From: Bacteroidota bacterium
Lineage (GTDB): Bacteria > Bacteroidota > Bacteroidia > Chitinophagales > Chitinophagaceae
Assembly: GCA_013287475.1 (NCBI GenBank)
Contig: JABDDT010000031.1
Span: 1 to 35,031, forward strand
Direction of reading: 5' to 3'
Length of the DNA: 35,031 nucleotides
Part shown: positions 2,648 to 35,031 of the stretch, one piece after another
How the letters are laid out: each line of letters begins with the position of its first letter
How positions within the stretch are numbered: the first letter of the stretch is position 1
The notes under the pieces: model-generated
The model's database searches: none
The model's input: the letters and a program-made list of their open reading frames with translations, nothing else
Told to the model about the DNA's origin: nothing
Translations under genes and position numbers: made by a program

Positions 2648-3811
2648 ATGAAACTCTTCGACGTATATCCAATAAATGATATCACAGTTACTCGTGCAAA
2701 AGGTTCTTACTTATGGGATGATGCAGGGCAACAATACCTCGATATGTATGGCGGCCATGCCGTGATCTCTATCGGTCATACACATCCGCATTTCGTATCC
2801 AGAATTACACAACAGCTGAACCAGGTGGCTTTTTATTCCAATTCTATAAGAATTCCTTTGCAGCAGGAACTGGCAGATAAACTTGGAAAAATTTCAGGGA
2901 AAGACGATTTCCAGCTTTTTCTTTGCAATTCAGGAGCAGAAGCAAATTAAAATGCAATGAAGCTTGCATCATTTTATAACGGGAGAAAAAAAATAATTGC
3001 TTTTAGTAAATCCTTTCATGGAAGAACATCTCTGGCAGTAGCTGTTACAGACAATCCGGCAATCGTAGCTCCTGTTAACCAAACAGAAAATGCAGTCTTT
3101 CTGCCGTTTAATGATGAAACCGCGCTGGAAAATTATTTTAATGCACATGGAGATGAGGTTGCCGCAGTAATCATTGAAGGGATTCAGGGTGTTGGAGGAA
3201 TCAATATTGCCAGCGATTATTTCCTTAAAAAAATAAGGTCTCTTTGTACGGCACATAATTCAATTTTCATTGCCGACAGTGTGCAGTGCGGATATGGAAG
3301 AACAGGTTCTTTTTTTTCCCATGATCACTCAGGCGTAAAGGCGGATATTTATAGTATGGCCAAAGGTATGGGGAACGGATTCCCTGTCGCAGGCATACTG
3401 ATAGCTCCGTTTTTAAAACCAAAACACGGTATGCTGGGAACAACATTTGGTGGAAATCACCTGGCCTGTGCTGCTGCACTTGCAGTTATAGAAGTGATCG
3501 AAGAAGAAAAGCTGATGGAAAATGCAAAATCAACCGGAGAATTTCTGATAAGCAGGTTAAAGAAAATAGATGGACTTAAAAATGTACGTGGTAAAGGATT
3601 AATGATAGGATTTGACCTGGATACGAATCTAAAGGATCTGCGAAAAAACCTATTAAAAAATCAACAGGTATTTACCGGTGAATCAAAACCCGATACCATA
3701 CGCCTGCTTCCTTCTCTGGCATTGAGAAAAAAAGAAGCGGAGGAATTCCTGGAATCACTTGAAGAAGAAATACTAAATATGGTTTCATCAAATCTGGTTA
3801 ATCAGGCATGA
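2648..3811 (+). pseudogene. argD: Acetylornithine/succinylornithine aminotransferase interrupted by one in-frame stop
   Basis: Class III PLP aminotransferase that converts N-acyl-glutamate semialdehyde to N-acyl-ornithine. The reading frame is continuous over 388 codons including the stop (normal ArgD length), except for TAA at 2948-2950, codon 101. It falls right after NSGAEAN, where the family has Glu (pattern GAEANE), so a single G-to-T change of GAA explains it; there is no frameshift. Downstream, the PLP-binding lysine sits in SMAKGMGNGFP (K239 of the full frame), with GYGRTG and TTFGGNHLAC intact. An ATG at 2957 could restart translation, but that product would lack the GAEAN phosphate-binding loop. 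The end overlaps argF' by four bases (ATGA). It may be a true recent pseudogene, a sequencing error, or a gene needing readthrough. Confidence 0.9.
2948..2950 (+). other. In-frame TAA replacing a conserved Glu codon in argD
   Basis: The codons read AAT-TAA-AAT-GCA-ATG, while the homologous protein pattern is N-E-N/A-A-M/L. Frame and homology continue unchanged on both sides. Confidence 0.95.
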
Positions 3812-17666: not shown

Positions 17667-18500
17667 ATGGCTGATTTAAAGGCTATTGCTTCACAAATCC
17701 GGCGCGATATTCTCAGAATGGTTCATGGTGCATCTAGTGGACATCCCGGAGGATCTCTTGGTTGCACGGAATTTTTTACTGCTCTTTATTTTGAGACCAT
17801 GAATCATAACCCTAAATTTTCGATGGATGGCAAAAATGAAGACATTTTCTTCCTAAGCAATGGCCATATATCACCTGTTTTTTATTCAACCCTTGCCAGG
17901 TCAGGCTATTTTGATGTTAAAGAACTTGCTACTTTCAGAAAACTGAATTCACGCTTACAGGGACATCCTACCACTCATGAGCACCTCCCTGGTGTTCGAA
18001 TAGCGAGTGGCTCTCTCGGCCAGGGTATGAGTGCAGCCATTGGTGCTGCCCTAAGCAAAAAACTCAATAAAGATTCAAATATTGTATTTTCTCTGCATGG
18101 AGACGGTGAACTGGACGAAGGCCAGATCTGGGAGGCCCTTTTGTTTGCTGCTCATCACAAGGTGGATAACCTGATTTCCACCGTTGACTGGAACCATCAG
18201 CAGATTGACGGTACTACGGATAAAGTAATGAGTCTTGGGAACATAAGACAGAAATTTGACGCTTTTGGCTGGAAAACGCTGGAAACCAATGGAAATAATA
18301 TAGATGAAATCGTTTCTACCCTAAAAGAAGCCAAATCCCTTACCGGTAAAGGCCAGCCTGTAGCCATTCTTATGCATACTGTAATGGGCAAAGGAGTTGA
18401 TTTTATGGAGAATGACCATGGGTGGCATGGAAGTGCTCCCAACGACGAACAACTAGCAAAAGCCCTGGTGCAATTGCCCGAGACTTTGGGAGATTATTGA
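17667..18500 (+). CDS. Transketolase, N-terminal (thiamine-diphosphate-binding) subunit
   Basis: Carries the PP domain of a split transketolase, which moves two-carbon units between sugar phosphates in the pentose phosphate pathway. The 277-residue protein has GASSGHPGGSLGCTEFF at about 24-40, HEHLPGVRIASGSLGQGMS near 110, and the thiamine-diphosphate motif GDGELDEGQ...DWNHQQIDG at about 144-177. It stops where the pyrimidine/C-terminal domains would begin in a full-length enzyme. Normally the C-terminal half-gene follows at once. Here a perfect inverted repeat and then a convergent permease gene follow, so the partner must be elsewhere. The start fits the family and a short leader. Confidence 0.93.
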   Translation: MADLKAIASQIRRDILRMVHGASSGHPGGSLGCTEFFTALYFETMNHNPKFSMDGKNEDIFFLSNGHISPVFYSTLARSGYFDVKELATFRKLNSRLQGHPTTHEHLPGVRIASGSLGQGMSAAIGAALSKKLNKDSNIVFSLHGDGELDEGQIWEALLFAAHHKVDNLISTVDWNHQQIDGTTDKVMSLGNIRQKFDAFGWKTLETNGNNIDEIVSTLKEAKSLTGKGQPVAILMHTVMGKGVDFMENDHGWHGSAPNDEQLAKALVQLPETLGDY

Positions 18501-32282: not shown

Positions 32283-33341
32283 ATGATAAAAAATGATTTA
32301 ATAATAAAAGCACTTCGGGGAGAATCTACTGAGAGAACTCCTGTCTGGATGATGCGACAGGCAGGGCGATACCTGCCAGATTATCGCAAGCTGCGGGATA
32401 AATATGATTTTTTTACCCGGGTACAAACACCTGAACTGGCAACAGAAATTACACTGCAGCCCGTTAATCAGATTGGTGTTGATGCTGCCATACTTTTTTC
32501 TGATATACTGGTAGTGCTTCAGGCCATGGGACTTGAAGTACAACTTATAGAAAACAAAGGACCGGTTTTACCGGAACCTATAAGATCAAAAGATGATCTT
32601 ACCCGTGTTTCTGTTCCGGATATTGAGGAAATGCTTGGTTATGTATTTGATGCGATCAGATTAACGAAAATGGAATTAAATAACCGGGTGCCACTTATTG
32701 GATTCGCCGGAGCACCGTGGACACTTCTGTGTTATATGGTAGAAGGAAAAGGATCGAAAACATTCGATTTGGTAAAAACATTCTGCTATACCCAACCTGA
32801 ACTCGCACATCGTTTATTGCAAATGCTGACCGACACAACCATAGCTTACCTGAAACAACAGGTGAAGGCGGGTGCAGATGTTATCCAGCTCTTCGATTCC
32901 TGGGGAGGTTTACTAAGTCCGGATGATTTCGAAATCTTTTCTTTGAGATACATGCGGCAGATTATCCAGGCTTTAAGAAATGATGTCCCAAGCATTTTAT
33001 TTGCAAAAGGAGCATGGGGCTCGATACCTGAAATGGTTAGTACCGGTGCGGCCTGCATCGGATTGGACTGGTGCATTCGTCCCGAAATAGCCAGGAAGTT
33101 GGCAGGGACGGGCATTACCCTGCAGGGAAACCTGGATCCTGCCAGACTGCTAAGTCCTATTCCTGAATTAAAAAAGGAAGTGACGAAGATGTTAAACAGC
33201 TTCGGGCCCGGCAGTTATATCGCTAACCTGGGTCATGGAATACTACCGCATGTTCCGGTTGATCATGCGAAAGCCTTCATCGATACAGTTAAAAATCATG
33301 TTTATCTAAAGCAGGAAAAACAAGTTCTGTCATCTCTTTAA
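32283..33341 (+). CDS. hemE: Uroporphyrinogen decarboxylase
   Basis: Decarboxylates the four acetate side chains of uroporphyrinogen III to give coproporphyrinogen III. The 352-residue protein has the signature [16 protein letters not shown] near residues 20-35, with the catalytic arginines. It also has [12 protein letters not shown] with the substrate-binding Asp near 75, [16 protein letters not shown] near 140, and [14 protein letters not shown] near the end with a conserved His. Length is normal. It sits tightly between hemD (2 bases) and hemF (2 bases). Confidence 0.96.
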
Positions 33342-33343
33342 TA

Positions 33344-34135
33344 ATGAATGATATCAGTACATATAAAACAAATGCTGCCGCTTTACGTGAAAACTGGATC
33401 CAGTTTATTCATTCATTACAAAATACCATTTGCAAAAGTTTGGAAGAAGCCGACGGCAAGTCACGATTCATAGAAGACTGCTGGGAAAGAACAGAAAAAG
33501 GAGGCGGCGGAAAATCAAGGATAATTGAAAACGGAAATGTGTTTGAAAAAGGCGGTGTGAACAGTTCAGTAGTATTCGGAAATGTTACGGATGCCATGAA
33601 AGCACAATTGAAAATTGAGGGTTCCAAATGGTTTGCCTGTGGTTTATCACTGGTAATTCATCCTGTGAATCCATTTGTACCAACGGTGCATGCCAACTGG
33701 CGCTATTTTGAATTGTATAATGAATCAGATGAAATAATCGACAGCTGGTTTGGAGGTGGAACGGATCTCACACCCTATTATCTCTTTAAAGAAGACGCTG
33801 TTTATTTTCACAACACAATAAAACAAACCCTGGATCCATTTGGCGAAAAATTATATCCACTTTATAAAAAAGAATGTGATCATTATTTCAGCAATCACCA
33901 CCGGGGTGAAGAATTGCGTGGTATCGGCGGGATATTTTATGACTACCTGCGTCCGGTGGATGCAGAAGATGCAGAAAGATTATTTGCGTTCCAGAAAGCG
34001 AATGGGATGGCTTTTTTAAAAACCTATCTTCCAATAGTAGAGAAACGCAGAAACCTTCCGTTTGGTGAAAATGAAATCAAATGGCAGGAAATCCGTCGCG
34101 GTCGTTATGTAGAGTTCAACCTGATACATGATCGC
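33344..34135 (+). pseudogene. hemF: Coproporphyrinogen III oxidase (aerobic), truncated at the 3' end
   Basis: Oxygen-dependent decarboxylase making protoporphyrinogen IX. Recognisable HemF covers 264 codons: GGGKSRIIENGNVFEKGGVN near residue 50, HPVNPFVPTVHANWRYFE near 105, WFGGGTDLTPYYL near 135, EELRGIGGIFYDYL near 190, and GRYVEFNLIHDR at the end. After that Arg the family continues with a glycine-led segment of roughly 40-50 residues (the GTxFGL...SILMSxPP part). Here the frame instead runs on for about 150 codons (to 34591) through sequence that is the reverse strand of hemB. The gene has therefore lost its conserved C-terminus. It starts 2 bases after hemE. Confidence 0.9.
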
Positions 34136-34969
34136 GTATTCTCCGCTGATATTATATGCACTAACTGGTACGCGTACTGCATTTTTTACTTCACGGATGA
34201 TATCCAAATATGCGAGAGCGGGTTTTACCATCACAATATCTGCCCCCTCTTCCACATCCTGGAGTGCTTCTTTAATAGCTTCAGTGCGGTTGGCATAGTC
34301 CATCTGGTAGGTTTTTTTATCACCAAAACCTGGTGCAGAATCCAGGGCATCGCGGAACGGGCCATAAAAACAGGAAGCATATTTTGCACTGTAAGCCATG
34401 ATACCTGTTTTGCTGAATCCGTTTTTTTCAAATGCATTCCTGATGGCACCTATGCGGCCATCCATCATGTCACTGGGTGCTACGAAATCTGCACCCGCTT
34501 CCGCATGACTAAGACTCATATTTACCAGGGCCTCTACTGTTTCATCATTTACGATTTCACCTTCTTTTACGATGCCATCATGTCCGTATGATGAATAGGG
34601 ATCAAGTGCCACGTCGGTCATTAAAATTATTTCGGGTACTGCTTCTTTAATTGCACGAATGCTTCGTTGCATCAGACCATCGTGATTCCAGGCTTCTTTC
34701 CCCGTATTATCCTTCATTTCATCTTTACATTTAATAAAGAGCAATACCGATTTCAATCCCTGCGCATGCAGTTCCTTTACTTCTTTTACAGTAATATCCA
34801 GGCTGTTCCTGAAATATCCTGGCATGGAAGCAATTTCCTGTCGCACCTGTTTTCCTTCATCTATAAAAAGTGGAGCAATGAAATCTGCCACACTGAGGTG
34901 CGTTTCCGCTACCATGCTTCTGATGGAAGGATTTGTTCGTAATATTCTGGACCGGTTTTTTAAAATCAT
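34133..34969 (-). pseudogene. hemB: Delta-aminolevulinic acid dehydratase (porphobilinogen synthase), truncated at the 3' end
   Basis: Condenses two aminolevulinates to porphobilinogen. Recognisable HemB covers 279 codons: LRTNPSIRSMV near residue 10, TDVALDPYSSYGHDG at about 118-132 (the Asp-type metal site, not the Cys zinc type), both Schiff-base lysines K196 (AYSAKYASCFYGPF) and K249 (IVMVKPALAYLD), and VSAYNISGEYA. Family members then continue with about 45-50 residues, including the second substrate-binding Ser/Tyr region (SIKRAGADLI, YFA). Here the frame continues instead as the antisense of hemF until a stop at 34016. The coding start at 34969 is normal. It faces hemF tail to tail with no intergenic space. 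Confidence 0.9.
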
Positions 34970-35031
34970 AACAGGAATAATATTTATATATTATCATTAA
35001 TAATTCAATTTTCACTTTTCACATTTTTCAT
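34970..35031. other. AT-rich region upstream of hemB at the window edge
   Basis: 62 bases, strongly AT-rich, probably the hemB leader/promoter on the - strand. It ends in CAT, which could be the start of a further - strand gene, but nothing can be shown from three bases. Confidence 0.3.

Follow-up and report, generated by a model that had tools for sequence, protein, structure and literature searches.

The DNA analysed here (the window, 35,031 bp) is the whole of contig C31 from the draft genome G000. Toward its end, hemF (coproporphyrinogen III oxidase) occupies 33344..34135 on the plus strand and hemB (delta-aminolevulinic acid dehydratase) occupies 34133..34969 on the minus strand. Each gene lacks the part encoding its C-terminus, with hemF represented by codons 1–264 and hemB by codons 1–279. 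Upstream of hemF, as in relatives, is a full open frame (32283..33341, plus strand) which, from its homology to the family, we take to be hemE-like. When compared with Chitinophagaceae bacterium UBA5175 (L034), the nearest named relative among the best 80 loci of one of our lists, the hemE-like gene is 87% identical over its length, HemF 74% and HemB 91%. Beyond the hemB start, an AT-rich stretch (34970..35031, minus strand) leads to the end of the contig; a search of 61 sources (60 stretches plus the window) matched these last 62 bp to nothing else.

The join between hemF and hemB

By comparison with relatives and by Pfam, HemF homology on the plus strand ends at Arg264 (34133–34135). HemB homology on the minus strand runs from its start at 34969 to Ala279, whose codon is formed by the identical three bases on the opposite strand. 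The contig passes through hemF, enters the interior of hemB and comes back on the opposite strand past the hemB start, stopping 62 bp before that start and 896 bp past the join. Both frames remain open across the join, with stops at 34589 (plus) and 34016 (minus), and the coding model places a switch from plus-strand to minus-strand coding at 34112/34113, without a non-coding gap. The read-through parts (34136–34588, plus; 34019–34132, minus) match no Pfam family at E 0.001. An earlier note on this DNA had described a sharp join with two cut frames, each reading into the antisense of the other; Pfam, the coding model and the residues that come next in relatives all bear this out. Its count of 3–4 shared bases proved too low as an upper limit: a run of up to six (ATCGCG, 34131..34136) is compatible with both sides and assignable to either, although this is a reading from the window and the relatives' next residues, and the true run may be shorter, as the native bases beyond the breaks are absent from the assembly.

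We looked for local features at the join and the contig end. Folded as single-stranded DNA, the region 34080–34190 is no more stable than its shuffles (z 0.50), giving no indication of a hairpin. No 16-mer of 34136–35031 recurs in the window in either orientation, as a foldback copy would require, and a 25-base pattern near the contig end is present only once in the window.

The HemF frame matches PF01218 at positions 4–245 of 295, the match ending at residue 264 (330 bits; cut-off 31.8), and the HemB frame matches PF00490 at positions 2–277 of 317 (410 bits; cut-off 24.6). Each is a clear but cut member of its family, falling short of the full-length match; the intact homologues at L034 span 4–295 of 295 and 2–316 of 317, respectively. 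Among 109 relative loci, the match reaches Arg264 in 107, and in every one of these the next residues are GTLF, GTIF or GTVF. Relatives' HemF proteins extend 50–70 amino acids beyond this position (median 51; 106 loci whose stretch includes the stop). The residue after Ala279 is Met in 91 of the 96 loci whose match extends that far and Leu in the other 5, with HemB extending a further 44–48 amino acids (median 46; 94 loci). Could HemF and HemB naturally end at the join residues in this lineage? We found no point in support of this idea, and we give it practically no credence, given that relatives' proteins continue by the lengths above and that the frames in the window run through each other's antisense without a stop at the join.

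As a separate observation on the relatives, the hemF matches at L030 and L033 (draft genomes G001 and G031) contain an internal stop; in G001 the match moreover falls into two rows that overlap.

Gene order in relatives and the missing sequence

The relative loci examined comprised the best 29 of one list and the best 80 of another. Both hemF and hemB are present in 100 of these 109 loci, on one strand in every case (100/100) and never on opposite strands (0/100); hemB lies downstream of hemF in 95 and upstream in 5, and the other 9 loci lack hemB in the stretch covered. Some genomes were drawn twice; counted per distinct hemF end (n = 104), the figures become 90 downstream, 5 upstream and 9 without hemB. 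Since relatives carry the two genes on one strand, hemB in the window is inverted. This comparison of gene order, recommended in the earlier note, lends no support to one of the explanations offered there, namely a deletion between convergent genes. At L034, hemB starts 22 bases past the hemF stop and is followed by a presumed hemL-like gene, so what follows the join in the window is simply the adjacent gene in reverse orientation. The window resembles this Chitinophagaceae arrangement (hemE-hemF-hemB-hemL) in gene order and strand from hemA to hemF, but differs in that hemB is inverted and cut, the end of hemF is missing and hemL is not found in the assembly. Going by the relatives' gene order, contig C31, if extended, would meet the missing hemF tail from behind.

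A search for the 3' ends or second copies of hemF and hemB elsewhere in the genome had also been recommended. The G000 assembly contains 137 contigs (3,163,783 bases), with completeness 74.17 and contamination given as 0. Queries were taken from L034 (the last 54 residues of HemB, the last 62 of HemF, including 11 before the break, and HemL) and run against G000 and ten relatives. As a positive control, all three matched in 10/10 relatives, although G016 does not count as independent, since its identity to the queries is 100%. Against G000, no match to the HemB tail appeared at E 10, while HemL brought up distant aminotransferases alone (best 9.3e-36, 34% identity). The HemF tail matched the window's own 11 residues and a site on contig C10 (E 0.255), and nothing else. 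The C10 match was considered as a displaced end and taken as chance. Apart from it, neither family nor tail searches of G000 revealed a second copy or a displaced end of either gene, and the missing segments did not turn up in another frame nearby.

The window does contain full-length frames that are presumably hemA-, hemC-, hemD- and hemE-like. The absence of hemL beside these frames looks like an assembly gap, not pathway decay. The earlier note had suggested that, if the join is real, two heme-synthesis enzymes are broken; this is probably wrong for the organism, which probably has intact hemF and hemB.

These results bear on whether the organism, or the one cell or strain sequenced, underwent a real inversion that lost sequence, cut hemF and hemB and turned most of hemB round. 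The sequence is consistent with such an event, and the tails do not occur elsewhere in the assembly. However, there is no sign of a second endpoint for the inversion, and the contig stops 62 bp before the hemB start. Moreover, the absent genes include hemL, which stands undamaged alongside in relatives; this suggests a gap in an assembly that is 74% complete. The other heme-synthesis frames show no sign of decay, and one more join of this sort is present near the end of another contig (see below). We consider a real inversion very unlikely, and there is similarly only a slight chance that a true recent inversion destroyed hemF and hemB and left a heme auxotroph taking heme or precursors from its neighbours. 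Draft genomes may mix strains, and the assembler could have picked, over the native order, a structural variant carried by a minority of such a mixture. This seems more improbable still, with contamination given as 0 and no native-order copy found beside the join.

Two further observations concern other parts of the window. An in-frame stop (2948–2950) splits a presumably argD-like aminotransferase gene of an arginine cluster into two frames (2648–2950 and 2957–3811) in the same reading frame; this is either a pseudogene or a sequencing error. At 17667–18500 is the N-terminal half of a transketolase (PF00456) without an adjoining C-terminal half, the best Transketolase_C match elsewhere in G000 being a 328-residue frame on contig C18.

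A second join and a scan of contig ends

We applied the coding-frame model to 60 stretches from 40 G000 contigs plus the window; 39 further contig ends were segmented and inspected visually, and six tight convergent pairs among these were checked for stops. Among the 119 of 274 contig ends sampled in this way, there is one clear further join of the window's kind, at C58:488/489 (L160). It lies 488 bp from the contig end, in a gene unrelated to hemF or hemB. Here, within positions 1–2919, a gene for an FG-GAP/ASPIC protein is folded back on itself: 810 codons of the protein lie on the minus strand, and the plus strand, from the first bases of the contig to the join, carries a C-terminal piece, interrupted by a run of ten Ns. 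In 5 of the 6 relative loci compared (L182–L186), both pieces match one strand, one after the other; at L182, for example, residues 435–810 match at 4–1131 and the other piece at 1252–1767. The sixth locus, L181, matches the C-terminal piece alone. Open frames in the relatives are 1115–1123 residues long in four of L182–L186 and 983 in L186. By reading, seven bases at the C58 join (CAGTGAT, from 478) could come from either side. In ordinary tight convergent pairs the stops fall at the boundary, whereas the joins on C31 and C58 have none there. The same contig also carries a paralogue of the folded gene (C58:11386–11649, 42%), which makes this second case a little less clean.

Several other rows of the scan were set aside. 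Four were divergent (L130, L133 twice, L166), where overlap is natural for open frames lying upstream of start codons; two convergent 41-bp overlaps in L168 have frames that end near the boundary. To gauge recovery, 60 artificial joins were drawn, of which 4 were skipped (short stretches) and 14 set aside (one side non-coding). The scan recovered 4/8 joins of the window type (plus then minus), 10/18 of the mirror type and 0/16 of the one-strand type, the last, with both sides read on the same strand, being outside what the scan looks for. An earlier control, with mixed orientations and a crude match test, had recovered 2/30. Two joins in 119 of 274 ends indicate that the assembly is not full of such joins, subject to a recovery of 4/8 for this type. 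Two cases, one of which is the reason the window was chosen, are too few to count as a statistical excess at contig ends.

Probable origin of the join

The relatives' gene order, the inverted hemB, the absence of both tails and of hemL, and the second join on C58 together make us highly confident that the join is no biological feature but an artificial inverted chimera lying where an assembly contig ends. Among the explanations put forward in the earlier note, the evidence most favours chimeric assembly. The final 896 bases of contig C31 were most likely joined on in the wrong orientation. Judged from relatives, the native order would be hemE, hemF, hemB and hemL on one strand. During amplification, library making or assembly, a strand ending in hemF may have switched, by way of a few matching bases, to the opposite strand inside hemB, about 1 kb downstream. 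Reading would then have run back towards hemF, with the contig stopping short of the hemF tail. While the inverted join near the contig end is established, we infer that it arose in vitro.

Comparable joins are known from multiple displacement amplification (MDA). In the study by Lasken and Stockwell (2007; PMC1855051), 406 of 475 MDA chimeras were inverted, 337 of these joined segments <10 kb apart, and >70% of chimera junctions were primed at 2–21 complementary bases. The C31 join is like those inverted chimeras (PMC1855051): nearby segments are joined in inverted orientation, the sequence between them is lost and a few bases at the join are compatible. The second segment is inverted relative to the native order, as judged from the 100/100 relative loci with both genes on one strand. 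The segments are natively close (mostly <10 kb in MDA), and the sequence between them is not kept in order, the HemF tail not being found in G000. By L034 the two breaks would be ~1 kb apart (178 + 837 bases), a figure that is the relatives' spacing. Beside the 2–21 bases of the MDA chimeras, the joins would allow at most six shared bases in the window and at most seven on C58. Unlike the published chimeras (PMC1855051), the C31 join is known from an assembled contig and not from reads, its shared bases are inferred and the sample is not known to have been amplified. At the level of abstracts, the literature yielded nothing specific on inverted chimeras at contig ends. Template switching as in MDA would be our first choice for an in vitro origin, and a reasonably likely one by analogy; a different template switch or an error in assembly would look no different.

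Read literally, the contig would imply that two heme enzymes have been lost, which serves as a warning for draft genomes. The signs of an inverted join close to a contig end are the gene order in relatives together with two open frames that cross without stops, and any such join ought to be checked before a draft genome is used to claim gene loss. The inversion, if true, would remove two steps of heme synthesis at once.
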